Made by a program: the position numbers and the translations under genes. From a virus, in IMG/VR virus record IMGVR_UViG_3300043426_000117, positions 1-27,322 of that record: 27,322 nt of DNA; one strand, given 5' to 3'. Positions 1,022 through 20,713 of this stretch are shown piece after piece. Within the stretch, counting starts at the first letter, position 1. Every line of letters starts with the position of its first letter. The notes beneath the pieces were generated by a model. The model was not told the DNA's origin, made no database searches, and saw only the letters and a program-made list of their open reading frames with translations.

Positions 1022-2142
1022 GTGACACTCTCTATATCAAAGACAACGCAGGGCACCTCCGCTACTGGAAGTGCTATGAGGTTCTCAATGGTCTAGAGAT
1101 TGAATACGGGGTGTGCGGTGGCACGCCCCTTTATCAATCTGAAGACATTGAGGAAGGCAAGGGTGGTCGTGATCAGGATGAACAGATTGCTTCCCGTATT
1201 CAGTCTCGCATTAATAAGCAGCTGGATAAAGGCTATGTATTTGATAAAGAGCAAGCTGCCAGTATGCGACCAGTCAATGCCCTAGGGTTTGTCAAGCCAA
1301 TGCTTGCCAAGAAGTCAGAGGATGTTGACCTCAAGAAGCTGCTGACTCGTGATGTGTATTATCAACATAAGTTAGATGGCAACCGTTGCCTAATTCATAA
1401 TGATGGTACAGGGTTGGTCGCATACACTCGCAATGGTAAGGAGTTCACAACACTCAAGCACATCACTGATAAGCTCAAGAGCATCATTCCAGCGGATGCT
1501 ACACTGGATGGTGAATTGTACTGTCATGGTGTGCCACTTCAGACTATTGTGAGCTGGGGAAAGCGTTTGCAACTTGATACTTTGAAGTTGCAATATCACT
1601 GCTATGACCTTGTTAGCAATGAGGCATTTTCCAATCGCTCTGCCGAGCTAGGAGCGATTCTAACAAATCGAGTTTCTACCCTAGGGGGTAGTATAGCCAT
1701 AGTCGATACTATTCGGATTAGCCCCGATTACGGCGCTACTTTAGGGGGTATCCCAGCTTTAGTAGGTCGTTCTCGGGCTGAAGGGTTTGAGGGTGGCATG
1801 GTTCGCTCTGACTGGACTCTTGAGCGTGGACTATTTGTTCCAGTTGGGTATGAAGATGGCAAGCGTTCTGGCAGCCTGATCAAATGTAAGCTGTGGGACA
1901 ATGCAGAGTTTGAAATTATAGGGGTTGACACTTCCGCTGATGGATGGGCAATCCTGAATTTGAGCAACCCACGTGGGCCTAACTTCTCAGTTAGCTGCCC
2001 AGGGGATGTGCCTTTCAAACACTATGTTCGTGTACACAAGGAGAAGTATATCGGCAAAAAGGTAACTGTTAAGTTTGCATACTGGACCACTGATAATGTT
2101 CCGTTTCATCCAACAGCAGAGGCAATAAGAGACTATGAGTGA
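1018..2142 (+). CDS. ATP-dependent DNA ligase
   Basis: This 374-residue protein seals nicks, for example between Okazaki fragments, using ATP. Nucleotidyltransferase motifs are in order: motif I KLDGNR with the adenylated lysine at about residue 118, RNGKEF at 138-143, motif III LDGELY at 163-168, motif IV EGFEGGMVR at 255-263 and motif V LIKCK at 287-291. An OB-like C-terminal domain follows (FEIIGVD to VTVKFAYW). Residues 1-75 form an extra N-terminal domain with YWKCYEV...IEYGVCGG, then GKGGRD...EQIASRIQSRINKQLDKGYV, like the WGR-type domain seen in some phage ligases. ATG 1018 overlaps the MazG stop (ATGA). Codons for residues 206-250 differ sharply from the rest of the gene (see the island at 1633-1765), although the protein there still looks like a normal ligase. 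Confidence 0.9.
   Translation: MSDTLYIKDNAGHLRYWKCYEVLNGLEIEYGVCGGTPLYQSEDIEEGKGGRDQDEQIASRIQSRINKQLDKGYVFDKEQAASMRPVNALGFVKPMLAKKSEDVDLKKLLTRDVYYQHKLDGNRCLIHNDGTGLVAYTRNGKEFTTLKHITDKLKSIIPADATLDGELYCHGVPLQTIVSWGKRLQLDTLKLQYHCYDLVSNEAFSNRSAELGAILTNRVSTLGGSIAIVDTIRISPDYGATLGGIPALVGRSRAEGFEGGMVRSDWTLERGLFVPVGYEDGKRSGSLIKCKLWDNAEFEIIGVDTSADGWAILNLSNPRGPNFSVSCPGDVPFKHYVRVHKEKYIGKKVTVKFAYWTTDNVPFHPTAEAIRDYE
1633..1765 (+). other. Hairpin-rich, rare-codon island inside the ligase gene
   Basis: Within about 130 bases the codon choice switches to CTA, ATA, GGG, CGA, CGG and TTA, which are scarce in the rest of the ligase. Inverted repeats follow one another. AATCGCTC (1633-1640) pairs with GAGCGATT (1652-1659). 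CTACCC (1676-1681) pairs with GGGTAG (1686-1691) across a TAGG loop. TAGTAT (1689-1694) matches ATACTA (1706-1711), and CTACT (1736-1740) matches AGTAG (1761-1765). The encoded protein is not visibly interrupted. What the element does is unknown. Confidence 0.6.
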
Positions 2143-2356
2143 TAAACCAGCATACATAGTTCGCATGATTGATGAGTTGAATCAACTCAATGCAAAAATC
2201 AAATCACTGTGTGACTTCTTGCATACTGAAAAGTATGAGCAACTTAGCTTTACACAGAAAAGCCTGTTGTGTGATCAGCTATCTGCAATGCGCAAGTATT
2301 CTGAAGTACTTGATGCAAGGATAGTTCTGGAAGAAAGGTTGCATGAACAAAGCTAA
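2135..2356 (+). CDS. Small helical phage protein, possibly crAss001_48-related family
   Basis: This 73-residue protein is predicted to be almost entirely alpha-helical. The pattern is RMIDELNQLNAKIKSLCDFL, then EKYEQLS, QKSLLCDQL, and SAMRKYSEVLDARI. This order (R-V/M-I-x-E-L helix, KLxxFL, EKY/F-xx-L, LLxxQL, M-x-x-YSEVL-x-x-RI) matches a small family common in phage genomes that I recall as crAss001_48-related. Its role is not known and the match is from memory. The ATG overlaps the ligase stop (2140-2142). It is the last gene of the rightward unit, and its stop is followed within 10 bases by a terminator. Confidence 0.7.
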   Translation: MSDKPAYIVRMIDELNQLNAKIKSLCDFLHTEKYEQLSFTQKSLLCDQLSAMRKYSEVLDARIVLEERLHEQS

Positions 2357-2360
2357 ATAA

Positions 2361-2387
2361 AAAGGCTCCCAAGCGGGAGCCTTTTTT
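2361..2387. terminator. Bidirectional intrinsic terminator between convergent units
   Basis: GGCTCCC (2364-2370) and GGGAGCC (2375-2381) form a perfect 7-bp stem with an AAGC loop. An A-run lies on the left and TTTTTT on the right, so it works as a Rho-independent terminator in both directions. It lies between the stop of the last rightward gene (2356) and the end of the leftward virion operon (2386), and can serve both. Confidence 0.9.
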
Positions 2388-4485
2388 ATTCGCTTTTCAG
2401 CACATCAAGCAACTCTTGATACTTGTCACGAACATAATCTTGAGGTGTCTCAGTTTGAGCCGCAGCACGCTGTATATGGATGCTGGCGTTCGGGTCAAGA
2501 CCATGAGCTGGACTAAGTCTGCGTCCAATGAATGGCATCCTGTTTGTATTCAAGCGGTAGCTCAAACCAAACAAATCCACAGGTCGCATAGCATAGTCAC
2601 GAGCACGCTTCATCAACCCCCTTTTAATAGTATGAGGCTCTGCTTTACCGAGTCCTGTCAAAGCCCCGCCCGCAACATCTTCACCGTGCAAAACATCATT
2701 GTAACGAGCGATGTTCTGGAACTGCTTGATTCTGCCTCCCTTGCCAGTCAAGGTTCGCATCGCTTCGTCGCCACCCATTACTGCTGATGTAATAGCAGTT
2801 GGGTCAACCTTACCCGCTGGTGTCATGCCCTTGTCAAGTAGCAGACGAGTCATCGAGTATCTTTCATTCAGGTCTTTCCATTGCTTGGCAGTTGCAGCAT
2901 TCATGCCACTGAGGAGAGAGTCATCAAGCACAGTCTGCACCTTACGGAGGTTGTCACCAAGGCGCTTATCTCCGCCTTGATATGCTTGGCTGATTTCATC
3001 CTGCAGCCGTGAGCGCAAGCCTTGGTACTGGGTGCCGTTGAATTGGTAGCCCATGAACCTGCCATCACTGCCACGCTGTGGCGAACCCATTTCTGTTTTG
3101 AGTTGCTTTGCAAAACCATTGACAATTGCATAGCGTTGCTTATCAACTGGTGATGTATTGCGATTCCTAGTTGGCTTCAAATCTGCTAGGACTTTGCCAA
3201 CTTCCCGAATCTGACGCAAGCCATATTTGCCAGTTGTGTTGGCCTCAAGAGCAGTGTAGCTGCCTTTGAGGTTTTTCATATGATCAGACAGTTCTCCCTG
3301 AGAAAGCAAATCACGGTCTTTGGTGTTCAGGCCAATTGCCTCACCTGCCATAGCAGTCATACGGCGCTGGTTGGGTCTGTCAACTTGGTTGGCAAACTCT
3401 TGGCCATAAACATCACTATTGCGGATTGCAGCTTCTTCAGTCTGGAGTGCTCTGTTGCCAGTGCGAATCCCAGGTGTGATGTGCAACCCTTGGCGATACA
3501 TTTCCTCAACAATCTTCTTGCCAGCAGCATCCCGCTCGTTGCGTGTTTTGTTCAGCACAGTGATAGGGCCGAACATCCCACTGAGTCCACCAATGAATGA
3601 AGTAACAGCACCCTCTCCAGCAGTGGTATCATATTGACCTGCCCCCTCAGCAGCACCAGTAGCAGTACCCTTGAGGATTGTGTTAAGTTTTTGCTCATAC
3701 TCAGAAGGAAGTCTGGCAGGCTGGTTAAGCATACGCTCAACTTCAGCTGTGTTTCCAAGCTTCCGGTTCATTGCAATGCTACCACTTTTCAGCGGGCCTT
3801 CCAAAGTCTTTCCAACAAGGTTCAGAGCCCTTTCACCTGCAATGCCAGTTGCGAAGTAAGGGAGCATCTCACCAATCATTGTGGAACCAAGGTTCTCACG
3901 CCGAGTGATTTCATAGCGCTCTTTCTCTTTTGCCATGTAATCATCAACTTGCTTATTACGCTCATCAGCTGGAAGATTTTCACCAATTGGCTGATGGTTA
4001 AGAATGTCCTGAACTGCTTGTGGGAAGAACTCAGGTGCAAGAGCAGTCTTTGCTTGGAACTGCTTGCCTATGTGCTTAGCACCCTCGATCACACTGCTGA
4101 TGAATGGGCGTTCTTGCTCAAGCTTCTTGAGTGCTTGGCGCTCCTCATCACCAATGAATGATTTTTCATATTCATTATTGGCATTGATTCGCTTATTTGC
4201 CTCATTGATAGCAATCTTTGGCATACCAAAAGGCAACTGATCTGGCATTGGGATATTAGGCTTAAGGTTCGGCTCGAACCCCGTAGGATTCGCGGCGCTA
4301 GGCCGAACCTCCGGCCCGCTAGGCGCTTCGATAGGGCTACCCTTTAGGGTAGTACCGCCCCCGTTTACGACTTCGCTACGGGCCGGAGATTTAGCCATAG
4401 CTTCTGCTACAGTGGCATCAATCTCTTGTGGAGTTGCCCCATTGGGCACCTCCAACTTACGACCATCTTCAAGTTGAATGATCAT
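2386..4485 (-). CDS. Putative DNA ejection / internal virion protein, 699 residues
   Basis: This is the last and one of the largest genes of the leftward virion operon. It opens with MIIQLEDGRKLEVPNGATPQ, an N-terminal module common at the start of podovirus ejection proteins. A Gly/Ser/Pro-rich linker (residues 30-75) follows, then long helical, Gln/Lys-rich stretches (about 100-560). No transglycosylase or peptidase catalytic motif was recognised. By position and composition it is a candidate for a protein packed in the head and injected with the DNA. ATG 4485 is preceded by GGAG with 6-base spacing. The linker is encoded by a strongly structured DNA island (4265-4388) whose codon use is unlike the rest of the gene. 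A minor tail or head component is the alternative. Confidence 0.6.
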   Translation of the reverse strand: MIIQLEDGRKLEVPNGATPQEIDATVAEAMAKSPARSEVVNGGGTTLKGSPIEAPSGPEVRPSAANPTGFEPNLKPNIPMPDQLPFGMPKIAINEANKRINANNEYEKSFIGDEERQALKKLEQERPFISSVIEGAKHIGKQFQAKTALAPEFFPQAVQDILNHQPIGENLPADERNKQVDDYMAKEKERYEITRRENLGSTMIGEMLPYFATGIAGERALNLVGKTLEGPLKSGSIAMNRKLGNTAEVERMLNQPARLPSEYEQKLNTILKGTATGAAEGAGQYDTTAGEGAVTSFIGGLSGMFGPITVLNKTRNERDAAGKKIVEEMYRQGLHITPGIRTGNRALQTEEAAIRNSDVYGQEFANQVDRPNQRRMTAMAGEAIGLNTKDRDLLSQGELSDHMKNLKGSYTALEANTTGKYGLRQIREVGKVLADLKPTRNRNTSPVDKQRYAIVNGFAKQLKTEMGSPQRGSDGRFMGYQFNGTQYQGLRSRLQDEISQAYQGGDKRLGDNLRKVQTVLDDSLLSGMNAATAKQWKDLNERYSMTRLLLDKGMTPAGKVDPTAITSAVMGGDEAMRTLTGKGGRIKQFQNIARYNDVLHGEDVAGGALTGLGKAEPHTIKRGLMKRARDYAMRPVDLFGLSYRLNTNRMPFIGRRLSPAHGLDPNASIHIQRAAAQTETPQDYVRDKYQELLDVLKSE
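4265..4388 (-). repeat. In-frame palindromic island with two adjacent perfect stems
   Basis: On the coding strand, CTCCGGCCCG (4388-4379) pairs perfectly with CGGGCCGGAG (4318-4309). Adjoining it, AGGTTCGGC (4310-4302) pairs with GCCGAACCT (4273-4265), so the two stems share two bases and could stack. Inside the first stem, CTACCC (4337-4342 on the plus strand) and GGGTAG (4347-4352) form a third hairpin with a 4-base loop. The island encodes residues 33-74 of the ejection protein, a low-complexity Gly/Pro/Ser linker. G+C content and codons (CTA, CCT AGC, GGG) differ from the flanks. It may be an in-frame palindromic insertion or a structured RNA element. Confidence 0.65.
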
Positions 4486-4488
4486 ACA

Positions 4489-5505
4489 TTACTCCACAAT
4501 GCGGTATTTATGCCCGCTCTTTGTAGTGCTCCAATCAGCAGGCTTGCTCTCGCTTGGTTTGACGCCTGCAGCAGCGTTGCGATTAACAACGCTGTTTGCA
4601 AACTCTTGTGCCTGCTGGAACTTAATCCGCTTTGTTTCTGGGTCATCAGTGAACTTGGGCATCATACCACGGTATGTTGCCATTTCACCTTCAGTGGCAG
4701 ATGCACCTGACATGATCTTGACTGTCTGCTGGGTAACACTGGTCTTGTAGTTATTGAACTTAACAGCAGACACAGTCATTGGAATCCCAGATGCACTAAG
4801 CAAGCTATCAGCAACGCTACCAAGAGTTCCTGGGGCTGTTCGCAGCTCATTCAAAATGTTAGTAGCAGGTGTTCCGCCTGTGTCGAGGTTCTGACCTAGG
4901 CCAGCAGTGGATGATTTCAACACATCACCTGCAGTACCAGCTTGACGCTGAGTGTCATTCAGCATTGGTCGATAGCCCATTGTTGGCAAGTCACCAAGCG
5001 GGATACCAACAGGAGGGTGCTCGCCTTGTTCATTGACAAGCCCCATGGAGTCTTTCAACCCAAGCAGTTGCTGGGTTGGGTTTACAGTCACTTTGAAGCT
5101 TGACTTATTAGCTGCTGCTTTATCAAGCACCCATTGTTGGTAAGAGCCTTGGTAGCCTTGTCCTTGTGCATACTGATACTCCTTCACAGATGAAGGAGCC
5201 TCAGTAGTAGTTGCAGCAGTAGCACGCTGCTGATACATGCTCAGTTGGCTCAAGCCTTCTTTCTGCAGGACAGGGTTCCCGCTTTTGATCATGGCATCAA
5301 CTTGCTCTTGCCATCTTGTCAATGGGTCAGGCATCTTATATTGCTGCCCTGCATTAGCAGGGTCAGCTGCAAAGATTTGCTTATCCTTATCATACTTGCT
5401 GCTCAACTCTTGCTGTAGCCTTGAGTAGGCATCAGCAGTCTGGGAAGGGTCAGGGCCAAGAACAGCATTGTTGTACCCTTTGGCAATTTGGTCAAGAATC
5501 CCCAT
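4489..5505 (-). CDS. Putative internal virion protein, 338 residues
   Basis: ATG 5505 was chosen because it follows a perfect GGAGG with 5-base spacing; upstream in-frame codons run into the preceding gene. The protein is soluble and Gln/Ala/Thr-rich. The segment SSVKEYQYAQGQGYQGSYQQW (residues about 104-124) is a short aromatic motif recurrent in phage structural and ejection proteins. There is no enzyme signature and no membrane segment. It lies between other likely ejection genes in the leftward operon, and the Shine-Dalgarno of the next gene overlaps its stop. A role as internal or tail-associated virion protein is inferred from position only. Confidence 0.55.
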   Translation of the reverse strand: MGILDQIAKGYNNAVLGPDPSQTADAYSRLQQELSSKYDKDKQIFAADPANAGQQYKMPDPLTRWQEQVDAMIKSGNPVLQKEGLSQLSMYQQRATAATTTEAPSSVKEYQYAQGQGYQGSYQQWVLDKAAANKSSFKVTVNPTQQLLGLKDSMGLVNEQGEHPPVGIPLGDLPTMGYRPMLNDTQRQAGTAGDVLKSSTAGLGQNLDTGGTPATNILNELRTAPGTLGSVADSLLSASGIPMTVSAVKFNNYKTSVTQQTVKIMSGASATEGEMATYRGMMPKFTDDPETKRIKFQQAQEFANSVVNRNAAAGVKPSESKPADWSTTKSGHKYRIVE

Positions 5506-5506
5506 G

Positions 5507-5815
5507 TTATCCTCCACGGAGCATATTGAGCAGAGCAGTAACAGGAAGCCCACGACTACCACCTTGCTGCTGCATATTGATTCCTTGAAGCATCTGCATC
5601 ATGTTGGGGACAGCAGGAGGCTGCATGCCAGCATTCATATATTGCATGCCAACATTCTTATCAGAAGCCTTGGTTCGCTGTGCACCTTGTGTGCCAACTG
5701 CTTCAAAAAATCTGCCCATTGGGTTGCCTGTATCAACAAGCCCTTGCTGTGTTTGCGGCGCAGGCTTCTTGGTGTTTCCAGCAGAACCCTTGAGTAAATC
5801 AAGAAATGACATCAT
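5507..5815 (-). CDS. Small Met/Gln/Gly-rich virion-operon protein, 102 residues
   Basis: The protein starts MMSFLDLLKGSAGN and continues into a disordered Pro/Gln/Met-rich middle (NAGMQPPAVPNMMQMLQGIN) and a short C-terminal helix ending RGG. No family was recognised. Two start codons (5815, 5812) sit at the stop of the upstream gene, and its own last codons contain the GGAGG that serves the next gene, so it is tightly built into the operon. Composition resembles its neighbours, suggesting a small internal virion or assembly protein. That is inference from context. Confidence 0.6.
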   Translation of the reverse strand: MMSFLDLLKGSAGNTKKPAPQTQQGLVDTGNPMGRFFEAVGTQGAQRTKASDKNVGMQYMNAGMQPPAVPNMMQMLQGINMQQQGGSRGLPVTALLNMLRGG

Positions 5816-6642
5816 CCAAACACACCCCCGCTTGCGCTGCTAGCCTTGGATTTGGAGCTACCGCTGCCGCTTCCGGTCATGATAGCATTACCAATGATGT
5901 TGGACAGGTTGTTCATCGGGTTCCAGCCAGCTTGCTGTGCTTGGAGCCACGGGCTCATGCCAGAGTTCAGCAGAGTGCTAAGCAGATCAGTGCTAGAGCC
6001 TTTCTCCATTGAACCTTGACCACCTTGCAACATTGCCAACAGACGGTCTTGTTCAGAGCCACGGTTGGTATCAGCTTGTTGAGCAATCCCCATCTTGAGA
6101 CCAAGATCGGTGTCATATGCACCATGGCGAAGCTCAGCCTCTTTGTTCAGCAAGTCTTTGTTTGCTTGGCTTGAGAACATTGCATCTTGCATGGCCTGAC
6201 GGCTGCTTCCGCTTTGGCCCATGGCAGCAGCATCCATTGCATTACCAGCTTGCAGTGTTGAAACATTCTGTGCGCTGTCAGCACGCATACGCTCAATCAG
6301 CGGATCAACATAGGTGTTGCCAGAGCCACCAACAATGGACTCATACATGCTACCCATGTTAGAGCGGCCACCCATAGAGTCAAGCAGCTTCTGCCTGATC
6401 TCAGCTGTATCGCCATATGCGCCTCCTGATTGCAAACCTTTGTTTGCATCAAGAATGCCATTCGCTGCATTGCTGATATTATCAGCTTGGCCGGTAATCT
6501 GCGACATATAGTCATTACCTTTACCAAACTGACCAAATGCGAGTTGATAAAGATTCTGGAGTGCATCACCCTGTGGCCCCCAGACATTGGTGCTGAAGCT
6601 GTTGTTAGAGCTTCCTTTGCTTTTACCTGATGAACCACCCAT
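5812..6642 (-). CDS. Putative virion protein (ejection group), 276 residues
   Basis: The start at 6642 follows GAGGTG and overlaps the stop of the GNAT-like gene. The longer open frame up to 6744 is inside that gene and was rejected. Both ends are Gly/Ser/Lys-rich and look disordered (GGSSGKSKGSSNN at the start, a GSGSGSSKSKASSASGG tail). The middle is helical with many Gln/Ala/Met. The early NVWGPQGDALQNLY segment is typical of podovirus virion proteins encoded near the ejection genes. No catalytic motif is visible. I infer an internal or DNA-ejection protein, with a tail-associated structural protein as alternative. Confidence 0.55.
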   Translation of the reverse strand: MGGSSGKSKGSSNNSFSTNVWGPQGDALQNLYQLAFGQFGKGNDYMSQITGQADNISNAANGILDANKGLQSGGAYGDTAEIRQKLLDSMGGRSNMGSMYESIVGGSGNTYVDPLIERMRADSAQNVSTLQAGNAMDAAAMGQSGSSRQAMQDAMFSSQANKDLLNKEAELRHGAYDTDLGLKMGIAQQADTNRGSEQDRLLAMLQGGQGSMEKGSSTDLLSTLLNSGMSPWLQAQQAGWNPMNNLSNIIGNAIMTGSGSGSSKSKASSASGGVFG

Positions 6643-7073: not shown

Positions 7074-7237
7074 GTTAACCCCAGATGTGTCTTGATGGCT
7101 TTTACTTCTTCCTGCAAATCAGTGATGTTTTTCTCAACATCTTGAAATGCGCCAGATAATTCAACAAGAAGCTGAGCAAGCCAACGTTGCAGCTCAGGGT
7201 CTATGCTGCTAGGAGGTGGTGTTTGACCAATGTTCAT
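7070..7237 (-). CDS. 55-residue coiled-coil protein
   Basis: A short gene joined to both neighbours by ATGA overlaps: its ATG at 7237 overlaps the nozzle gene stop and its TGA overlaps the next ATG. The protein begins MNIGQTPPPSSIDPELQRWL and continues as an amphipathic helix (FQDVEKNITDLQEEVKAIKT) with coiled-coil character. Such short helical proteins are common beside tail genes. No family or function was recognised. Confidence 0.7.
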   Translation of the reverse strand: MNIGQTPPPSSIDPELQRWLAQLLVELSGAFQDVEKNITDLQEEVKAIKTHLGLT

Positions 7238-8787
7238 CGCTTACCTGCCATTTGGTATTCAAAATCAAGCCCAGTAAGTATGAAGTTTGCAGTTACATCA
7301 GTAGCCATTATGCGGTATGCGTGAAGCACGCCAGAGCTTCTGATATCAACCTTCCTGTCAACGTTTGGCTGGAAGTCAACTGCAGGCTTCCAAGTAACTG
7401 GACCACCTGGATATTGCTGAGAACCTAGTTGCATCTTGACGCTGCTACCACCAACAACATGAGGATATAAACGAGTTACTATCTTTGCAGTGTCCAGACC
7501 ACCTATTGCTAAATCCGTTCTTTCTATTATAGACGAATAAGGCTCAGAATTAAAGCCGAGTATATAATCTAATAAAGCGAACTTATAGGTTGTGCCATTG
7601 TATATGATTCCCATTAACACTGAGTCAAAAGGTGTGGTTGAGTTATCATCCCATGTCTTTACTGACCCATCCCAGCTTTCTGTAGAACCATCCCAAGTTG
7701 ATGATGGTGATGCAAGCCTCCCTATGTCAGCACCAAGGCAACCAGGCAAATCACGTGTTAACCAGCTATCATATTCATAATTGTAAATGAATGCAATATT
7801 TGAATACTTGTTACCTCCCATAGGGAAGCAGAACCATACCTCCTTTTTATTTGAGTGGTGGACAGCAAATGCCTTGCCGTAATTTTTCTTATCAATTGTG
7901 TTCATCCTTGAACGAACACGATTGTTTGCTATTGACTTAATCGTATTGCCATCGTTGCTAAAAACATCACCATCTGAGAGGAAGTAATGAGTGCCATTAA
8001 CATCAACCACTGCGTCCTTGGCAATGAGTCCGACAGTTGTTTGCATTTGCCGTATACGCCAGACATATTGGCCTCCAACATAATCCACTACATTGATACC
8101 ACTCTCTCTATAAATAACAAGAGAATCACGAAGTGAAAGCCCACCAACTATTTTGCCGCCATTTCCACCTAATGCTGAGATGCCTGCAGCACTAGTTTTG
8201 TCAAGCGGGTTCCAATTCAGAGGGACTGCGCCAACATCCGCTGGTGCTGACCATCTGATGCCATCAAACTTCTCAACACCATTGTCAAGAAGACCCAATG
8301 CAAACAAATACTGCTTATGCACAACAAGAATATTGCAACTCTGGTTAACTTGCTTCCATGTCTGTGTGTTTGTCCAAGGAAGAGATTTGAAACGGCTTGC
8401 TGCAGCATCCATATACATGGGTCCAAGGATTGGATGGCACAACAGCGGGATGCCTGATATGGCGCCTGATGACCATGCTTCTTCATCCGTGATTGTTTGC
8501 ATAAAATCAGGCGTCACATTAGAGAATGCAGAGACATATGAATAAACTTTGTTTTTTCCAGATACAAACCATACATCACCAGCACTTGACTTAACAAAGA
8601 ATAATGAATGCGGGATTGCATCAACTGGCAAGTCAGCAATATTCATGTGACCACCAAATGGTGTTAGCCCACCATTCTGCATCCTCAAATTCACTGAACG
8701 AGTTATGAAATCTTTCGCCAGATCAGTTGGATTTATATCAGTGTTAAGTCCAGCAACTGAAAAGTTGCCAATGCTGTATGATGGCAT
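7234..8787 (-). CDS. Tail nozzle-like protein
   Basis: This 517-residue protein is rich in beta strands with repeated blade-like motifs: NVRGG-like NLRMQNGGLTPFGG near residues 33-46, LRDSLVIYRESGINVVDYVG, VWRIRQMQTTVGLIAKDAVV, HYFLSDGDVFSNDG, KEVWFCFP, and IAFIYNYEYDSWLTRDLPG. This pattern is familiar in short-tailed phages, where the nozzle or P22 gp10-like protein forms a beta-propeller ring below the adaptor and closes the DNA channel. Position agrees: adaptor and fibres are upstream in the same operon. A region of altered codon use lies at about 7498-7592. Assignment to nozzle rather than another tail protein is by resemblance. Confidence 0.7.
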   Translation of the reverse strand: MPSYSIGNFSVAGLNTDINPTDLAKDFITRSVNLRMQNGGLTPFGGHMNIADLPVDAIPHSLFFVKSSAGDVWFVSGKNKVYSYVSAFSNVTPDFMQTITDEEAWSSGAISGIPLLCHPILGPMYMDAAASRFKSLPWTNTQTWKQVNQSCNILVVHKQYLFALGLLDNGVEKFDGIRWSAPADVGAVPLNWNPLDKTSAAGISALGGNGGKIVGGLSLRDSLVIYRESGINVVDYVGGQYVWRIRQMQTTVGLIAKDAVVDVNGTHYFLSDGDVFSNDGNTIKSIANNRVRSRMNTIDKKNYGKAFAVHHSNKKEVWFCFPMGGNKYSNIAFIYNYEYDSWLTRDLPGCLGADIGRLASPSSTWDGSTESWDGSVKTWDDNSTTPFDSVLMGIIYNGTTYKFALLDYILGFNSEPYSSIIERTDLAIGGLDTAKIVTRLYPHVVGGSSVKMQLGSQQYPGGPVTWKPAVDFQPNVDRKVDIRSSGVLHAYRIMATDVTANFILTGLDFEYQMAGKR

Positions 8788-8788
8788 A

Positions 8789-9457
8789 TCAAGCTGTCCT
8801 TTTCCAAACGTTTACAAAGATTCGTGCTCCACGAACATCAAGCCTTGCTTGATCATTACCAACGTGTGAAACAAAAACAGTTCCACTTGGTGTGCCAGCT
8901 GATTCGCTTGTGGTTGGGATATTGTATGCATAACCATCCCATCTTGCAGCATTAGTGCTTGGGCCTGAGTTCCCTCCAAATATATTACTGCCATGGCTGT
9001 GTGGAGGCAATGGATTGCCAAAAAATGTTGCATTGTGATTGTGAAGTGGCAATGGCACCAATGGTGTGTTTTCACCAGTTGTGCTTCCGCCGTTATTGCC
9101 ATTGCCAACATGTAGGCTGTAGTCGCCATCAATTCTTGTCCAAACAGTTCCTGGAAAAAGAGTTGATGGGTCAACATTATCAAGACGCAATTCAATTGAC
9201 CCAATTGGTCTTGCGTTCTTGATTGCATTTTCCATGTTTGTAAGTCTTGTTGCAAGACCATTCAAAAGAACTGGATCAACAGTAAGTGGTACTGAGAAAC
9301 CTTGACCTGGCTGGTTATTAACACGAGGGCCAGGGAATGTTGATTTCAAGACATGCTTGAGTAAACGTATGTGATCATCACCACGGTCTACGCCATCGCC
9401 TCCATGAGGCCATTGCTCATCAAGCTGTTCAATAGTTGTTGCGTTCTCAAGAGGCAT
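8789..9457 (-). CDS. Short tail fibre / collar-type receptor-binding protein
   Basis: This 222-residue protein has an N-terminal attachment segment (TTIEQLDEQWPHGGDGVDRGDDHIRLL) typical of phage tail fibres, a short helical linker, and a C-terminal collar domain starting PIGSIELR...LFPGTVW. Two HxH clusters, HNH and HSH (about residues 137-155), lie in a Gly/Pro/His-rich tip. In T4 gp37 such HxH motifs bind iron in the needle-like tip, so a metal-stabilised trimer is likely here, by analogy. ATG 9457 follows GGAG located in the last codons of the 56-residue gene. It probably binds the host surface. Confidence 0.75.
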   Translation of the reverse strand: MPLENATTIEQLDEQWPHGGDGVDRGDDHIRLLKHVLKSTFPGPRVNNQPGQGFSVPLTVDPVLLNGLATRLTNMENAIKNARPIGSIELRLDNVDPSTLFPGTVWTRIDGDYSLHVGNGNNGGSTTGENTPLVPLPLHNHNATFFGNPLPPHSHGSNIFGGNSGPSTNAARWDGYAYNIPTTSESAGTPSGTVFVSHVGNDQARLDVRGARIFVNVWKRTA

Positions 9458-9462
9458 ATTTG

Positions 9463-9633
9463 TTACTCCTTGAATTGTGTGTAAACTGGTTGAGGAGGAT
9501 ATTCAGCCCATACATCATCTGCAAGGCCATTATCATATTCTATCCATGTTCCAGATGATGTTTTAGGGGGCATGCCTATTACAGCATACCCCACTATTGC
9601 AAGCCCTGGAATCATGATCATGAGATCACTCAT
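9463..9633 (-). CDS. 56-residue protein with hydrophobic N-terminus
   Basis: ATG 9633 overlaps the stop of the TM/coiled-coil gene (ATGA) and follows AAAGGAG with 5-base spacing. The stop lies 5 bases before the fibre start. The protein begins MSDLMIMIPGLAIVGYAVIG, one likely membrane segment, followed by a polar, acidic, aromatic tail (TWIEYDNGLADDVWAEYPPQ). It directly follows a TM/coiled-coil gene, so it could belong to a lysis or membrane-associated set, but no family was recognised. Its coding sequence contains an 8-of-9-bp hairpin at 9567-9592. Confidence 0.7.
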   Translation of the reverse strand: MSDLMIMIPGLAIVGYAVIGMPPKTSSGTWIEYDNGLADDVWAEYPPQPVYTQFKE

Positions 9634-10092: not shown

Positions 10093-10126
10093 ATTATTAA
10101 CCCTTATGTAAATTGATCATCCCGTG

Positions 10127-10153: not shown

Positions 10154-10162
10154 TGATTCTCC

Positions 10163-12255: not shown

Positions 12256-12256
12256 A

Positions 12257-12628: not shown

Positions 12629-12646
12629 GGTCATAATTCCTTACAC

Positions 12647-12668
12647 AAAAGGGGCCATTGCTGGCCCC
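12647..12668 (-). terminator. Hairpin terminator or attenuator after the capsid gene
   Basis: On the minus strand, GGGGCC (12668-12663) and GGCCCC (12656-12651) form a 6-bp G+C stem with a 6-base loop, followed by TTTT (12650-12647). It lies between the major capsid stop and the next start. As the operon continues, it is probably a partial terminator that raises capsid mRNA relative to tail mRNA, or a 3'-end protecting hairpin. Confidence 0.75.
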
Positions 12669-12687
12669 TGCTATTAGTTAGTTGTTA

Positions 12688-13656: not shown

Positions 13657-13668
13657 AGTATGTTTTCC

Positions 13669-14769
13669 TTACATGCGGTCAATGAGAGCGGCTGCGACAG
13701 CATCTACCGAGCCACCTGATTTTCTGATCTGTTCCTTCTGTTGCTTAACAGCACGTGCTTTCTGCAGAGAAGGACGATCACCAACAACGCCTGGTTTAAC
13801 AAATTTGGGGATAGGCTTTTCAGCCTTCTTGGTTTGCACCTTGCTAGTTGCACTGTGGAATTGCTTTGCATCACGGATCAAACGCATCAATCGTGCATCC
13901 AAGTTGTTAGCAACTTCCTGATCAGCAAAACCATACTTCTCGCGCAAGAATGCACCAATTTCACCAAACTCTTTTGCCATTACTGATTGGTCAGACCAAG
14001 CAGGATTATCTTGCACCATCTTGGCCAATTCTTGGCCAACACGTGTTTGATTTTGCGCTTGCTGTTCAGCTTGCTGTTCAGCTTTAATGCGCTCACCTTC
14101 TTGGCCACCAAGGGCCTTGATTTGGTTGATATAATTGAGCCTGCTTTGGAACTGCTGCTGGAGAGCAGCCCATTCACCTGGCTCAGTCATACGGAGACCA
14201 TTCCAGTCAACCCCTTCAAAATCAGCCATAAGTTGCTTTTCAGCAACATCAGTGAGCTTGTTGAGTGACTCCAACCGCGTCAGAAGCTCTTGAGACGCCT
14301 GCTGCTTGGTAGCAGCAAAAGTCTTACGCTCCTCTTCCAGTGCAATAGACTTGTTGTTAACATGCCCCTGCAGCTGGTAGGATTTAACAAGCTCACCCAT
14401 CGGAACCTTTTGGACTTGCCCGTCAATGATGGCATTGAAGACAACTTTGCCTTCTGCGTCATATTCGAGTTTGTCCTCATCAATCCCAAGCAGGCTTGCT
14501 ACGGTGATTTCGCCATCATCAGCATCATCACCATCCAGCTCAGCGTCTTCACCAGCATCAGCGTCGTCAGCTTCAGGTGGACGTTTACCGTCGCCATTCA
14601 CTACTGCGTCATCTTGGTCGTCCGCATTGCCATCATCCGGCTGTCGCTCAGGGAACAGTGCAGCTTGGATGCGGGATTCAATATCTTGCGCTCCGCTTGC
14701 TGCACCATCGTCACCAGCCGGTGCCATGTAGCGCATCATGAGAGTAGCAGCCTTACTGAATCTAAACAT
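13669..14769 (-). CDS. Scaffold / head assembly protein
   Basis: This 366-residue protein has an acidic, disordered N-terminal third (many D, E, G, A at residues 18-90), a small beta-like module (ITVASLLGIDEDKLEYDAEG), and long Gln/Ala/Lys-rich helices (KTFAATKQQASQELLTRLES and onward) with a basic C-terminal end (QKARAVKQQKEQIRKSGGS). This layout, sitting between portal and major capsid, is that of a scaffolding protein that guides procapsid assembly. GGAG lies 8 bases before ATG 14769, within the end of the 90-residue gene. No protease motif is seen. Confidence 0.8.
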   Translation of the reverse strand: MFRFSKAATLMMRYMAPAGDDGAASGAQDIESRIQAALFPERQPDDGNADDQDDAVVNGDGKRPPEADDADAGEDAELDGDDADDGEITVASLLGIDEDKLEYDAEGKVVFNAIIDGQVQKVPMGELVKSYQLQGHVNNKSIALEEERKTFAATKQQASQELLTRLESLNKLTDVAEKQLMADFEGVDWNGLRMTEPGEWAALQQQFQSRLNYINQIKALGGQEGERIKAEQQAEQQAQNQTRVGQELAKMVQDNPAWSDQSVMAKEFGEIGAFLREKYGFADQEVANNLDARLMRLIRDAKQFHSATSKVQTKKAEKPIPKFVKPGVVGDRPSLQKARAVKQQKEQIRKSGGSVDAVAAALIDRM

Positions 14770-14772
14770 ATC

Positions 14773-15045
14773 TTATTCTCCAGATTGGTTGAGCTCACTT
14801 TGTGCAACTTTGAGTTCATCTCGAAAGTGCAAAAACGAGTTCTTCAGACTTCTCAGTGCAGTTTGTTGCATCTTGATAATCCTGAGTTGCTCAGTATCCT
14901 GAGCAGGCACACCACAAAATGCTTCAAACAATTTCTGCTCCTGTTGCAAGATGAAAGGTTCAATGTGTGCTTCATACACATCAACCTGTCGTCTTGCAAC
15001 TGCGATTCTGTTTTCTAATGAATTAATCCTTTCTGGCGTTAGCAT
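14773..15045 (-). CDS. 90-residue helical protein between portal and scaffold
   Basis: The protein is helical throughout (NSLENRIAVARRQVDVYEAH, and KMQQTALRSLKNSFLHFRDE), with coiled-coil character and no membrane segment. It starts 23 bases before the portal stop and ends 3 bases before the scaffold start, so it is translated between the two. Its last codons contain the Shine-Dalgarno of the scaffold gene. No family was recognised; a portal- or scaffold-associated assembly role is an inference from position. Confidence 0.7.
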   Translation of the reverse strand: MLTPERINSLENRIAVARRQVDVYEAHIEPFILQQEQKLFEAFCGVPAQDTEQLRIIKMQQTALRSLKNSFLHFRDELKVAQSELNQSGE

Positions 15046-17149
15046 CTTTCTCTCCAGATGTTAGCTGTACCATTGCAATTTCATACTGCTGTTGCAACTG
15101 GTCATACTTGAATTGCAAATCTTCAGTATGATGTACATCCTTGAGCTGAAGTTGAGCTTCAGAAAGCTGTTGCTCCAACTCTGCAATCTTATTCTCACTC
15201 TGCCCTTTGATTGTTTCAAGAGCAGTTTTAAGTCGTTCAATCTTGCCTTTAAGCAGAACAGACTCTTGTGCAGCTTGAGCTTTGGTTTGCTCAGCCTGAG
15301 CAATTGTTGTCTGAGCTTCAAGAAGTGCCTGCTGTTCTTTGATCTCTTTCTCTTGCGCTTGCTGGCTTGAAGCAGCCACTTGCTGCTTATTCTCTTGGCC
15401 CTCTGGAGAGTCAGGATCAAGGAAGTACGGCACAGCACCTGGCATACCAGAAGCCTTGATAAAGTCATTGAGTGCAGCAAACACATTCTTTTCAGTAACA
15501 ATTGCTTGACCAGGCTGAGCAAGAATTTGGCTTTGGAATGTAAGCACTTGCATAAGAGCAGCTGCTTGTTCCTTGCGGTTGCCTGAGCCAGTGCCAACAC
15601 GAACAGTTGTTGAGTTGCGAGCAACCCAGCGTGATGGGTTGACCTTGGCCCAACCACCTCTAAATTCATAGTCCTCAACAACATCCTTGTTGGAGATCAA
15701 CAGATCACGAATGCGGATGCAAAGAGGCTTAATGCCAGTCTCTGCAAACACACGTACCATGAGCCCAACAAGCTCTTCCTTTTGGGTAAGCAGCTTGCCA
15801 AGACCTTCTGAGCCAACACGGTCACCCATTGCACTATCGCTGATGCTGCCATCAGGTGATACCCCAACACGACCTGCACGGACTTGGTCCATATAGCTCA
15901 TCATGTTGTAACTGTCACTGCTAAGCGGGTTGGTAGGGAATGGTCTTACTGCATCCATATTGTTTACACGAACCACTCCGCCTGCGCGGGCATCAAGCAA
16001 GTCATCCAGATTGACTTGGCCTTCAAGTGCCAGAGTACGCTGGTTGTTCTGCAGGTACATGTTATCAAGCATGTTGCGCCACAGAGCAGTCTTGATGTCC
16101 TGAATCTCTTTCAGTCTGTCATAGATGGACAGGCCGAAGAATTTGTGAGACATGATGATAGCAGTCACAGAGATATATGGGCACTCATCAATCTCTTCAA
16201 CAGACAGAATATGGACAGGCTCATCATCACCAATGTAGGTGATCTTGACGCGCTCTGCAATGCCATCATCATTCAAGTCCAGGAACATGTAGGCTTCAGT
16301 AACATCCAGCAGCTCATTCTCAGGAGAAACTGACCTTCCGCTGGATTGGGCGTATGTAGACTCGCCTTGGACTTCAAAGCGATATGTTCTGCGATTATCA
16401 GCCTCAATGTCATCGCTGACACTGACAGCATAGACTTCATCCCTGTCATATCCACTCTCAACTAGGTCAGAGCGGGTGAGTGATTGAGTTTCACTAATGA
16501 AGCGGCACTCAGACAGGTCGATGCTGTTGTGGCGTCCATAGACACGCATATTCTCTGGTGCAACAGGCTTGACCACAACGCTGCCTGATAACTCAACGCG
16601 TCTGATGTTGACGTCATGGATTTCGATGCCGGACTCATCAATTGATGTGGTCTGTCCAACAAGCTCAACATTATCCTCAGCCAGAATCATCTGCAGCTCA
16701 GGAGTGGTGATGCCAATATATGACTCTACTGCCACACGGTTGGTCTTGTTGTAGTAGACCTTGATGAAGCCATTCTTTTGCAGCAAAGCATCTTTGACAA
16801 GAGTGTGAATTGCCAAGAAGCCATTGTTGTGCTTCATCAACACATCATAAACAAAGCGTGATTCCAGTTGAGCCTGAGTGCTATCATTTGGGCCTACAGG
16901 GTCAAAAGTCACAACTTCATTGTTCTGAGTGAATGCCTTGACAATCTCAGGGAGAATCCACTCAATGGAGTCTGCAACATCAGTTGACACCACAGCAGAG
17001 CGACCAGCCTTGGTATTTCCCTTGTCACCAAGGTAATACTTCAGTGCCTTCTGACGCTCTGCATCAATAGCATCATTAGACGAACCAGAAGACTGGTCAA
17101 TCTCTTCAGCTATGATTTTCTTGATGTCGTCATCAGTGTACTTATCCAT
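15023..17149 (-). CDS. Portal protein
   Basis: At 708 residues this is close to P22-type portals (about 725). The N-terminus (KIIAEEIDQSSGSSNDAIDAERQKALKYYL) and the following AVVSTDVADSIEWILPEIVKAF match podovirus portals, as do HEYYNKT-like FIKVYYNKTNRVA, VAPENMRVYGRHN, and SDSAMGDRVGSEGLGKLLTQKEEL near residues 425-450. The last 120 residues are a long Gln/Lys/Glu-rich coiled coil (QEKEIKEQQALLEAQTTIAQ), as in the P22 portal barrel. The gene follows TerL within one base. The portal forms the 12-fold DNA channel and docks the terminase and the adaptor. Confidence 0.9.
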   Translation of the reverse strand: MDKYTDDDIKKIIAEEIDQSSGSSNDAIDAERQKALKYYLGDKGNTKAGRSAVVSTDVADSIEWILPEIVKAFTQNNEVVTFDPVGPNDSTQAQLESRFVYDVLMKHNNGFLAIHTLVKDALLQKNGFIKVYYNKTNRVAVESYIGITTPELQMILAEDNVELVGQTTSIDESGIEIHDVNIRRVELSGSVVVKPVAPENMRVYGRHNSIDLSECRFISETQSLTRSDLVESGYDRDEVYAVSVSDDIEADNRRTYRFEVQGESTYAQSSGRSVSPENELLDVTEAYMFLDLNDDGIAERVKITYIGDDEPVHILSVEEIDECPYISVTAIIMSHKFFGLSIYDRLKEIQDIKTALWRNMLDNMYLQNNQRTLALEGQVNLDDLLDARAGGVVRVNNMDAVRPFPTNPLSSDSYNMMSYMDQVRAGRVGVSPDGSISDSAMGDRVGSEGLGKLLTQKEELVGLMVRVFAETGIKPLCIRIRDLLISNKDVVEDYEFRGGWAKVNPSRWVARNSTTVRVGTGSGNRKEQAAALMQVLTFQSQILAQPGQAIVTEKNVFAALNDFIKASGMPGAVPYFLDPDSPEGQENKQQVAASSQQAQEKEIKEQQALLEAQTTIAQAEQTKAQAAQESVLLKGKIERLKTALETIKGQSENKIAELEQQLSEAQLQLKDVHHTEDLQFKYDQLQQQYEIAMVQLTSGEKDANARKD

Positions 17150-17150
17150 C

Positions 17151-18551
17151 TTAGATTATCCCATCATTGTTGTAGTTGATCTTGGTTGGTGAAGAGTTGC
17201 TTGAGATCAAGCTAGTGCCTTCACCAAGACTAAGCATCAAGTACTGGAAGCCATCTGCTGGGTGAGAGTATCTGTTCTTATCAGGAACATCATGATAACG
17301 CTCATCACCTGCAACTTTAATTCGTCGGTATTTGTATCCGCCTGAAAGTGCCTTTCTCAGAACCTTGCACTTAGGGCCTACCAAGAAGCCAGGGTTGCCA
17401 GCTGAGTCCAAACGCTTCATGGGAGCAGCTGCTGCGCCTATACGAATAACAGGGTCGTTTGTCCAAGCAGGGGCAGCTGGAATCTTCTCAGCAGCCAGCA
17501 TCATAAACGGAGTTGATGAATCAGACTGAGCACGGAAGTCACCAGCTGGGTCACCAGTAAATCTAAAGTTGTAGCCTTGATACTCACTATTGATCTTCTG
17601 TTTGAGCAGCCGACCAAAAGTGCGAGCATCCATGTCTTCCGCTACCAACTCATCAAAGGCTATGATCTGGTCACTTGCTGTACGAACACCAAAGATAGCA
17701 GCTGGAGTTAAACCAAAGTCAATGCCAACATGAATGGTAATAGACTTTGGAACAACAATGTCTTTGTCAGTGTGATGGAAGTCATCTTTGTACTCAGGCC
17801 AGACAGGCTTGCCATCTTGTACAAACCCATATTGACCATGAACATACACGTTGATCCACTCCTGATCTTTACCCGCTTGCATCTTCTGATAATAGCCATC
17901 TGGCAAGTTCTTGATGTTCTCCGCTTCAGGAGACAGACCAGAGGGCTGATAGAAAATCTCATAACCTTCAGGCTTCTGTTCTTCAAACAACTTGTAGTAC
18001 CAGTGATCAGAATCAGGCGGGTTGGTGTCCATCAAAAGGCAGTAGCGAGTTGCTCCGCCCTTGCCATCAACCTTTCTTGGATAGCGACCAAGACGACCAA
18101 TGAGCATATCCATAATTGCTTTTGGAATCTCACGGGCCTCATTGAGCCATCCGCCTGTGACTTCGAGTGACAGCAGCTTCTTGATATCATCAGGCTTATC
18201 AAGAGCACGAAACAGAAACTCTGCTTTGACTATGGTTCCATCTGGAAGAGCTTGTTTGAATGTGAACTTCAAGTCTTGCTTGAGGAACACTCCAGTGTGC
18301 TCAGGAACCCAGTCAAAGAAGGTTTGTATTGTTGTATCCATGAGTTCACGGTAAGTGTTGCGTACAACTACCCAACGTGACTCACGGACATTAGTGCCAG
18401 GAGTAGGCTGCTGGACAAAGCAACTGATGCGCATCATCTCAGCAACACATGCCACAGACTTGCCTGATCCAATTGGGCCAAAGAGTGAGCGGACAAATGC
18501 ATCACTCTTGTGGAACTTGGCCATGGTTGGGGAGGCAATGTAGGTGGTCAT
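17151..18551 (-). CDS. terL: Terminase large subunit
   Basis: The 466-residue protein carries the ATPase and nuclease of the packaging motor. Walker A is GPIGSGKS (residues 25-32). The Walker B and catalytic acid lie at GGWLNEARE (133-141). The coupling motif is MDTNPP (174-179). RNase H-like nuclease acids are D278 (HVGIDFGLTP), D334 (FTGDPAGDF) and D433 (YSHPADGF). ATG 18551 lacks a strong Shine-Dalgarno; a second ATG at 18524 would still keep Walker A. It follows the 37-residue gene and directly precedes the portal gene. Confidence 0.95.
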   Translation of the reverse strand: MTTYIASPTMAKFHKSDAFVRSLFGPIGSGKSVACVAEMMRISCFVQQPTPGTNVRESRWVVVRNTYRELMDTTIQTFFDWVPEHTGVFLKQDLKFTFKQALPDGTIVKAEFLFRALDKPDDIKKLLSLEVTGGWLNEAREIPKAIMDMLIGRLGRYPRKVDGKGGATRYCLLMDTNPPDSDHWYYKLFEEQKPEGYEIFYQPSGLSPEAENIKNLPDGYYQKMQAGKDQEWINVYVHGQYGFVQDGKPVWPEYKDDFHHTDKDIVVPKSITIHVGIDFGLTPAAIFGVRTASDQIIAFDELVAEDMDARTFGRLLKQKINSEYQGYNFRFTGDPAGDFRAQSDSSTPFMMLAAEKIPAAPAWTNDPVIRIGAAAAPMKRLDSAGNPGFLVGPKCKVLRKALSGGYKYRRIKVAGDERYHDVPDKNRYSHPADGFQYLMLSLGEGTSLISSNSSPTKINYNNDGII

Positions 18552-18560
18552 GATGATATG

Positions 18561-18674
18561 TTATTCCATAGTGGTTGTAACCTTGGCAGGTTTAGACTTG
18601 TTATCACCAATCAGAGAGTTGCACAACATAGCAACCAGCCCAAATGCGAGCACAGCAATCACGAGTCCTTTCAT
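18561..18674 (-). CDS. 37-residue membrane protein
   Basis: A short gene between the two terminase genes. ATG 18674 follows GAAGGTG. The product is one hydrophobic segment (MKGLVIAVLAFGLVAMLC) followed by a short Lys/Thr-rich tail. A cysteine ends the hydrophobic stretch, but the residues before it (AML) are not a standard lipobox. Small membrane proteins are sometimes lysis-related, but no function can be assigned. Confidence 0.65.
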   Translation of the reverse strand: MKGLVIAVLAFGLVAMLCNSLIGDNKSKPAKVTTTME

Positions 18675-18687
18675 GATGGCACCTTCT

Positions 18688-19062
18688 TTATGACTTCTGT
18701 TCTTCCGCTGGGTAAACAATCTGGAACTGGAATCCGCCTGCTGATGTCTTCTGTGCAGTCATCGCAAACTCAGAAGAGACTTTGTTCAGGTACTCAATAG
18801 CAGACTGGCCGCCCATTTTTGTCTTCATATGCATGAACAAGTTATCACATGCATCCTTGACACCATTGGCACGACCACGCTTGTGTAGACGCTTGGCAAA
18901 GTCCATTTCCGCTTCTGTGAGCTCGGGTGCTTCAAGCAGGCAACGGTCCAGGCACTCATCAAGCGAAAGAGCAGGTGCACAGATGACAATCTCCACGGCC
19001 AACTCTGGAGTCAGCGTGTCAAATGTATTGCACTTCTCTTTGATAATTCGCTCTAGGTCCAT
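18688..19062 (-). CDS. terS: Putative terminase small subunit
   Basis: This 124-residue protein is the first gene of the virion operon, two genes before TerL. It is helical (ELAVEIVICAPALSLDECLDR, APELTEAEMDFAKRLHKRGR) with a conserved-looking C-terminal half (CDNLFMHMKTKMGGQSAIEY). Small terminase subunits form rings that recognise viral DNA for packaging and normally occupy this place. No explicit DNA-binding motif stands out, so the call is based on position, size and helical make-up. A hairpin leader lies 23 bases upstream. Confidence 0.75.
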   Translation of the reverse strand: MDLERIIKEKCNTFDTLTPELAVEIVICAPALSLDECLDRCLLEAPELTEAEMDFAKRLHKRGRANGVKDACDNLFMHMKTKMGGQSAIEYLNKVSSEFAMTAQKTSAGGFQFQIVYPAEEQKS

Positions 19063-19084
19063 GGTGTTTGTCTCATCTGCTAAA

Positions 19085-19112
19085 AGGCTACCTCTAATAG
19101 AGAGCCTAGCCT
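19085..19112 (-). promoter_or_regulatory. Hairpin in the virion operon leader
   Basis: AGGCTA (19085-19090) pairs with TAGCCT (19107-19112), enclosing CTCT (19092-19095) and AGAG (19099-19102). It lies 23 bases before the small terminase start and would be in the 5' leader of the virion mRNA. It may affect translation or mRNA stability. Confidence 0.45.
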
Positions 19113-19222
19113 AAAAGAGGCCTAAAGTAAAGAGGATAGTTAAAATATTTTGTGTAATGACCTAGCAGATGGAAGATTGAATATAAAATTATAGGATAGA
19201 GGCAACTGGACTGTGTTTTCTG

Positions 19223-19237
19223 AAAAAAAATTTTTTT
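19223..19237. other. A8T7 tract (bent DNA candidate)
   Basis: Eight A followed by seven T form a perfect A-tract/T-tract junction. Such tracts bend DNA and are common at promoters and origins. It sits between the candidate minus-strand TATAAT and a polypurine stretch. Confidence 0.5.
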
Positions 19238-19428
19238 AGGAGGAGGGGTACTGGGTGTGTGAAAAGTGTGATGGAATTGCGTGAGCAGGACACCTCGGCC
19301 TTGGACTGCTGCATCACCCCCTCCCCCACCCATCCACCGCTTGCCCTGACATGCTGGCCATAGCCCTCCACACCTCTACACTTCCAGACGTCTATCCCTC
19401 TGGCCGTCTAGCCTTCCACCTGCGCGCG

Positions 19429-19438
19429 TATATAAAGG
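19429..19438 (+). promoter_or_regulatory. TATATAAAGG motif, candidate phage promoter element
   Basis: TATATAAAGG lies in the control region upstream of the early genes. The same 10-mer recurs at 24323-24332 and a variant, TATATAAATA, at 25651-25660, all in intergenic DNA with rightward genes downstream. Repetition at gene-start regions is the only evidence. Confidence 0.35.
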
Positions 19439-19685
19439 AAGGAAAGCGGATATAACTATCAGATATAAGTATCCCACTGCTTATTCCTAACTAATCTTTA
19501 CTTCTATCCTAACTGGACTATAGTTATCTCACAGGTCGGGAATAGACCCAGATAGGGGGGAACCTCTATAAGTAGCTCTCTCCTAGCGTAAGAAGTAGGG
19601 GCGACCTTAGAAAAGAAGTAGCTTTACTAATATCGGAAAACGTACTACCTTTATAATCGAATACTTTGAACAACTGGAGAATACT

Positions 19686-19964
19686 ATGGACCATATCGGG
19701 TTTCTTTCTATAGAGCTAGAAAACCTTAGCACCTCTTTGATAATAGCTAACAAAGAGGCAGGTGCCACTCTTAATACTAAGGGGCTAGTATTCCTATCTA
19801 TAAGGGATACAGAAGATGTTAATTTAAATAACCCAATAGGTGACGGGATTTATATGGAAGACTTTAGGGGACAGCCTTATGATACCCCAATAGCAGTCTA
19901 TATAGAGGTATATAATGACCCATCTAAATATATGGTCTTTATACCAGTGGAACATAAAGAATAG
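19686..19964 (+). CDS. First early gene, 92 residues, unknown; atypical codon use
   Basis: ATG 19686 follows CTGGAGAATACT, a leader repeated exactly before the next gene. The acidic product (MDHIGFLSIELENLSTSLII ... MVFIPVEHKE) shows alternating beta strands and an FRGQPYDTPIAVYIEVYND segment. No family was recognised. Position as the first rightward gene after the control region suggests an immediate-early host-takeover protein. Codons are unlike those of most neighbours, with many CTA, ATA, TTA and GGG, matching the intergenic islands more than the other genes. This suggests a separate origin or distinct selection. Confidence 0.75.
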   Translation: MDHIGFLSIELENLSTSLIIANKEAGATLNTKGLVFLSIRDTEDVNLNNPIGDGIYMEDFRGQPYDTPIAVYIEVYNDPSKYMVFIPVEHKE

Positions 19965-19974
19965 TCTTTACTTT

Positions 19975-20020
19975 AGGGTAGCATGGGGCTATCCTTTAGT
20001 AAGGGTTAATCCTAGCCCTT
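19975..20020 (+). promoter_or_regulatory. Two hairpins between early genes 1 and 2
   Basis: AGGGTAGC (19975-19982) pairs with GCTATCCT (19988-19995), 8 bp with one G-T. AAGGG (20001-20005) can pair with CCCTT (20016-20020). No T-run follows, so this looks more like an mRNA-processing or stability element than a terminator. CTTTAGGGTAG (19971-19981) is shared exactly with 4342-4352. Confidence 0.45.
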
Positions 20021-20049
20021 AATGACACCATTGAATGCTGGAGAATACT

Positions 20050-20700: not shown

Positions 20701-20713
20701 GGGGTGGCCAGTA

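Follow-up and report, generated by a model that had tools for sequence, protein, structure and literature searches.

Islands almost free of TG and CA in a podovirus-like phage group

The genomes of a podovirus-like phage group contain islands that are almost free of the dinucleotides TG and CA and are found both within and between genes. As an explanation of the whole, we slightly favor the reading that these islands are promoters purged of TG/CA, owing to a mark or coat at these steps that RNA polymerase would not tolerate.

The window, i.e., the whole stretch of DNA analyzed, is a viral contig of 27,322 bases that belongs to this group. The cultured members considered here are Cronobacter phage Ss1 and the Vibrio phages VA-RY-3 and PVA7. 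The five-genome set comprised the window (W), Cronobacter phage Ss1, Vibrio phages RY-3 and PVA7, and the contig G003. Gene numbers (SS1_nn) follow the record of Cronobacter phage Ss1. The window shares stretches of 2,190 and 12,139 nt at 100% identity with two other metagenome contigs (L003 and L004, respectively).

Using a two-state HMM trained over the five genomes and a minimal island length of 60 nt, 45 islands with a total of 7,455 nt were found. In the island state the probability of A after C was 0.067 compared to 0.372 in bulk DNA, and that of G after T 0.045 compared to 0.300. Observed/expected ratios over the 45 islands were 0.19 for TG/CA, 1.63 for TA and 1.23 for CG. The stretches holding the hairpins described below contained 0–2 TG/CA per 100 nt versus approximately 18 in the bulk. 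In a separate count of zones holding no more than 3 TG/CA per 100 nt, the five genomes had 6, 8, 7, 8, and 6 of them, while a Markov shuffle of each genome had none. Among nine other phages, no such zone was found in Xp15, FoX6, MEP301, and VpV262, while T7 had two, MD2021a three, PB1 7 (shuffle 0), BcepC6B 6 (shuffle 4), and WTB 20 (shuffle 16). The low windows of WTB and BcepC6B were set aside as little over their shuffles, and those of PB1 as mostly GC-rich coding stretches. The longest TG/CA-free run measured 143–168 nt in the five genomes versus 35–122 nt in 15 other phages, with SP6 at 122 nt. In the accessible part of the open-licence literature on TpG/CpA islands and TG-depleted phage promoters, no description of such islands was found.

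Viral-contig loci found by their terminase showed zones in 11 and none in 16 of 27 cases. Some of these loci belong to, or are close strains of, genomes of the five-genome set (L026: window; L027, L028, and L055: G003). Of 8 new loci found by their polymerase 5 had zones, one of them (L060) a short tandem repeat that was set aside. In L056, a polymerase relative without islands, the CG dinucleotide is almost missing (observed/expected 0.07 over the whole locus). GATC is strongly avoided across the whole genomes of the group (observed/expected 0.31–0.58); as this avoidance is genome-wide and not specific to islands, it was rejected as an island trait.

The places of the islands are partly kept among the genomes while their sequence turns over (Table 1). 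The ligase island was found at the same place in all four other genomes, and the internal island of SS1_17 was called in four of five. Islands between the Sak4 and SSB genes and between the helicase and SS1_35 genes were present in all four genomes covering that region, and the latter recurred in L053, L054, and L058. For the ejection-type gene, the place of the island in the window differs from that in RY-3, PVA7, and G003; in Ss1 this gene has no island.

Table 1. Islands, predicted promoter elements and hairpins in the window.
Feature	Position	Strand	Observation
Intragenic TG/CA-free island, DNA ligase (1018–2142), holds the first hairpin word	1645–1777		HMM; 3 TG/CA in 133 nt
TAGAAT, −10-like, antisense to ligase, as TTAGAATCGCTC	1657–1662	−	4/5 genomes (W, RY-3, PVA7, G003; not Ss1)
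Hairpin word CTACCC-TAGG-GGGTAG	1676–1691	+	Fold z −0.96; not in relatives
TG/CA-free island in the ejection-type gene 2386–4485, close to its 5′ end	4252–4396		0 TG/CA in 145 nt; GC 61%
Hairpin word CTACCC-TTTA-GGGTAG	4337–4352	+	Fold z −2.3; not in relatives
TG/CA-free island in the late structural gene 7234–8787 (SS1_17 homologue)	7509–7589	−	HMM; read as putative intragenic promoter
TATAAT of the SS1_17 island (TTTAAT-17-TATAAT)	7526–7531	−	TATA[A/C]T there in 5/5 genomes
TG/CA-free island	19081–19148		HMM; 0 TG/CA in 68 nt
Long island, early control region, takes in the small ORF 19686–19964	19405–20021		HMM; 37 TG/CA in 617 nt
Conserved leader with two hairpins, precedes the early gene 20050–20700	19966–20022	+	Same fold, different arms in RY-3, PVA7
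Early gene, SS1_01 family	20050–20700	+	N half all-helical; TG/CA-rich itself; islands on both flanks
Long island following the SS1_01 gene	20708–21120		HMM; 9 TG/CA in 413 nt
TG/CA-free intergenic island with strong hairpins	24255–24396		HMM
TG/CA-free island preceding the primase gene (from 25752)	25621–25701	+	HMM; island there in 5/5 genomes
TATAAT, predicted −10 of the primase promoter	25692–25697	+	Invariant in 5/5 genomes

Depletion of TG/CA acts at the DNA level

Every codon phase of the islands within genes shows depletion of TG and CA, and so do the junctions between codons (TG in phase 3 falls from 0.171 to 0.018); neither the peptide nor codon choice therefore explains it. In the pair RY-3 and G003, island identity was only about 57–69%, with 64% for the ligase islands. 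In the ligase gene of this pair, the presence of TG/CA was altered by 4 of 51 island mismatches versus 118 of 280 outside, and in the replication region by 10 of 98 versus 855 of 1,908. The window and L026 gave 8 of 34 versus 158 of 352. For PVA7 and G003, values of 0 of 13 versus 54 of 143 (ligase) and 3 of 14 versus 459 of 1,062 (replication, alone not significant) were obtained. Fifty-one random substitutions are expected to give about 13 TG/CA in the ligase island; RY-3 has 3. The alignments indicate that substitutions creating TG/CA are suppressed in the islands, which are neither uniformly faster nor slower evolving than their flanks.

A mutational process instead of selection, with TG/CA mutating away in hypermutable or often single-stranded islands, would agree with the over-representation of TA and CG, both of them transition products at TG/CA. 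However, the islands are more conserved than the flanks between PVA7 and G003 (0.90–0.99 versus about 0.85), though less so for W versus L026 and RY-3 versus G003, and the depletion extends to duplex DNA well upstream of the −10 hexamers, so that we consider such a process improbable. Marginally less credible still is the view that the islands are plain non-coding DNA or DNA without NTG start codons. DNA free of TG on both strands offers by itself no NTG start codon, and the intergenic promoter DNA of SP6, T7, and LUZ24 also contains a few TG/CA-poor windows. This view is contradicted by the non-coding DNA at 19149–19404, which lies between two islands and carries 16.1 TG+CA per 100 nt, a normal density. 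Several islands are, moreover, located inside genes, the depletion reaches upstream of the presumed start, i.e., into DNA that is not transcribed, and the longest TG/CA-free runs exceed those of the 15 other phages.

Four classes of islands resemble sigma70-type promoters

Four island classes aligned by their place (primase, SS1_17, SSB, and SS1_35) contain a conserved sigma70-like −10 hexamer. In addition to the hexamers of the primase and SS1_17 islands, TATANT was found upstream of SSB in all four genomes and TATATT upstream of SS1_35 in three; TAGAAT, TATAAT, and TACTAT were taken in L053, L054, and L058, respectively. The island upstream of SS1_35 in Ss1 has no clear −10 and was excluded. 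The resulting profile comprised 20 conserved −10 sites from only four homologous classes, leaving out the ligase, SS1_23, SS1_11, polymerase, and early-region islands.

Toward these sites the content of TG+CA per 100 nt fell from 15.4 (−150 to −110) via 13.0 and 7.5 (−80 to −50) to 1.8 (−50 to −30). It was 4.2 between −30 and −6, 0 in the hexamer and 3.4 from +6 to +25, and rose again via 9.0 and 12.0 to 15.9 (+65 to +100). The dip between −50 and +25 covers about one RNA polymerase footprint, with approximately 16 far out. Since the sites were chosen in known islands, the dip results partly from selection of the sites, while its asymmetry is not so affected. All TAnnnT words of the same islands gave a more symmetric profile than the conserved −10 hexamers. 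Relative to the conserved −10, the median island extent was 67 nt on the upstream and 31 nt on the downstream side (16 of the 20 sites, measured against HMM islands; L053, L054, and L058 are outside the HMM set). At the SS1_17 site no island was called in G003, and the −10 of PVA7 lies outside the called island.

Some of the 20 sites have −35 sequences such as TTTACT, TAGACG, TTGACT, or TTGAAT, while others match TTGACA poorly. A general sigma70 scan of the islands gave a median p-value of 0.35 against simulations of their own composition, with 11 of 45 islands at p < 0.1. No −10 was found in the GC-rich islands W 4252–4396, Ss1 9455–9569, and Ss1 21728–21903. The first of these, which contains the second hairpin word, is not accounted for by the promoter reading. 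Alignment of the ligase genes shows the antisense sequence TTAGAATCGC conserved in four of the five genomes, and we would guess that an antisense promoter is located there.

The promoter reading is supported for the islands with a conserved −10. That these promoters work, and that the unaligned islands are promoters as well, seems plausible to us. We propose that the islands have a regulatory role, most of them as sigma70-type promoters for the host RNA polymerase, several of these within genes, and that TG and CA may have been purged from them over roughly one polymerase footprint. Like the sigma70-type promoters of lytic phages that rely on the host RNA polymerase, for example those of LUZ24 and the early ones of T7, they have a TATAAT-like −10, in some cases at 17-nt spacing to a weak −35-like sequence, and are found upstream of early, replication, and late genes. 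Unlike in these phages, TG/CA is shut out over about one footprint: no dip was present around seven annotated LUZ24 promoters or six E. coli promoters of T7. A further difference is that the −35 regions mostly avoid TTGACA and that several of the predicted promoters are intragenic.

Hairpin words and shared 11-mers

An earlier note on this DNA had described a hairpin word, CTACCC-N4-GGGTAG, as a link between islands in distant genes. Both copies were confirmed with no other copy in the window, and the word was present in 0 of 100 dinucleotide shuffles of the window. The 11-mer CTTTAGGGTAG occurs, as reported, at 4342–4352 and 19971–19981 and only there, and the related ACTTTAGGGGG at 1738–1748. 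Also correct was the confinement of these words to atypical islands (HMM islands 1645–1777, 4252–4396, and 19405–20021). A link between the distant islands does exist, carried by the near-absence of TG/CA in all five genomes, which is far stronger than one word, and not by the hairpin word. The word was missing from all four full-length relatives and from nine other phages. Positions are thus not kept in relatives, which the note had named as evidence against its proposal, as far as the word is concerned; for the islands this is false.

The note had further suggested that the three sites form a family of dispersed palindromic elements or are copies of one protein-binding or RNA-processing site. 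Compared to whole-window shuffles the hairpin words are indeed rare, they are restricted to islands, and hairpin stems of at least 6 are enriched in islands (61 versus 25). However, the excess is weak once the composition of the islands serves as reference: some 6-4-6 stem occurred twice in 1.7% of such simulations, a modest excess. Similarly modest was the number of 11-mers common to the eight islands of the window (9 observed versus 3.0 expected, P 0.03). In the whole window 449 different 11-mers are present at least twice, and a repeated 11-mer is therefore not rare as such. The sequence of the islands turns over while their composition stays, and the copies share no sequence beyond composition. 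The copy at 19971–19981 belongs to a different structure, being one arm of the first stem of a covarying leader hairpin and unrelated to the hairpin word. No consistent motif was shared within a genome: an EM search per genome stayed at or below the best of the simulated islands in 8 of 10 runs, the exceptions being Ss1 at width 12 and, marginally, G003 at width 12, with different motifs. RNA structure was likewise rejected as a common property, as the in-gene islands gave inconsistent z values from about −2.9 to +1.4; strong folding was found for the early-region islands and 24255–24396. Palindromic elements of the Rickettsia type are inserted in genes. The palindromic words within coding regions are reminiscent of them, but the islands of the window are without a common element sequence, and the ligase island is not an insertion because the alignment of the ligases continues across it with no more than small gaps. 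A common element or site is thereby largely refuted and in our view very improbable. The hairpin words and shared 11-mers would largely be by-products of the narrow vocabulary that is left once TG and CA are forbidden.

What TG and CA might carry

In the mechanism proposed here, the TG/CA steps in the DNA of this group would bear or recruit an agent incompatible with polymerase, and selection would for this reason strip them from promoters. This agent would most likely be a TG/CA-specific modification of bases or a protein of the phage that coats its DNA. According to PMC6449724, TG/TC dinucleotides are where the hypermodified thymines of the phages M6, ViI, and phiW-14 are located, and TG is the target of the M6 kinase, which provides a precedent for a TG-directed mark. 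The resemblance lies in a dinucleotide-level mark including TG, here proposed from the sequence. As in phiW-14 and ViI, palindromic hexamers with TG/CA were less avoided than others. With islands masked and the five genomes pooled, observed/expected ratios were 0.96 with TG/CA (not avoided) and 0.73 without (avoided). The corresponding values were 0.79/0.35 for M6, 0.95/0.67 for phiW-14, and 1.02/0.71 for ViI, and 0.72/0.62 for lambda, 0.53/0.69 for SP6, 0.61/0.70 for LUZ24, 0.60/0.58 for T7, and 0.54/0.38 for VpV262. Pooled relatives without islands gave 0.81–0.86 with and 0.80–0.94 without TG/CA. The contrast is not specific to the group, since PB1 shows it as well (1.01/0.76), and that of VpV262 is also similar. 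In contrast to the hypermodified phages, no modification genes were recognized among the proteins scanned, which included part of the small ORFs; only ThyX was found. The thymidylate synthase was rejected as a modification gene, as it is this ThyX; moreover, L054 has islands but neither ThyX nor SS1_34. A further difference is that phiW-14 and ViI have no TG/CA-free islands and M6 only four weak TG/CA-poor zones, while all five genomes of this group have islands.

In an alternative without base modification, a coating or silencing protein of the phage would make TG/CA DNA unusable by binding the flexible TG/CA steps, with the islands as gaps left for polymerase. Candidates are the tandem-HTH-like proteins SS1_35 and SS1_01. 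All genomes in which SS1_35 was found have islands (all three phage records, L053, L054, L055, and L058), and the protein was not found in L056, L057, and L060. Its gene lies directly downstream of an island in the former, and SS1_01 sits between two islands. The family is modelled as tandem three-helix units; the SS1_35 model is all-helical, and parts of it weakly resemble HTH/homeodomain folds. However, a structure search of the PDB gave no match at E ≤ 0.001, structural Z scores of about 5 are within the range of unrelated helical folds, and short SS1_01-like proteins are present in relatives without islands (L040, L051, and L052). We therefore regard this coat as rather unlikely. In a viral structure library SS1_35 had one close match of nearly equal length, which is nameless there.

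Returning to the proposal of a mark or coat at TG/CA, we tentatively consider it possible that it is an undescribed genome-wide one, either a modified base or a coat, and that promoters are kept free of it in windows of about one polymerase footprint and can thus be read from the sequence, intragenic and antisense ones included. If so, a simple sequence test would tell which phages have a hidden dinucleotide-specific mark, and promoter positions could be read off directly, including intragenic ones that escape ordinary promoter prediction. A further question would then be how phages with marked DNA keep the host polymerase working, on which there is little sequence evidence so far.

Early region and further observations

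The SS1_01 gene is preceded by two consecutive hairpins with covarying arms, with counterparts at L012 6031–6090 and L010 39142–39201. This leader, possibly a regulatory RNA, has a conserved CTTTACTT at its start and a loop region with GTTAATCC. The control region 20708–21120 contains many short G/C-run words, e.g., AGGGGGATA, and the word TTATAAATCAATAAC with similar versions in relatives, and is a candidate origin region. C-rich runs and a poly-A/T tract were observed in the non-coding DNA at 19149–19404, a possible site of packaging or end of the genome. Comparison with Rfam yielded 3 matches at E ≤ 0.5, all under their own gathering scores, two of which fall on a terminator-like hairpin near 2352–2393. 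Between the DUF3310 and exonuclease genes, RY-3 carries a sulfotransferase-like gene (L012 21766–22521), where Ss1 has an HNH endonuclease.
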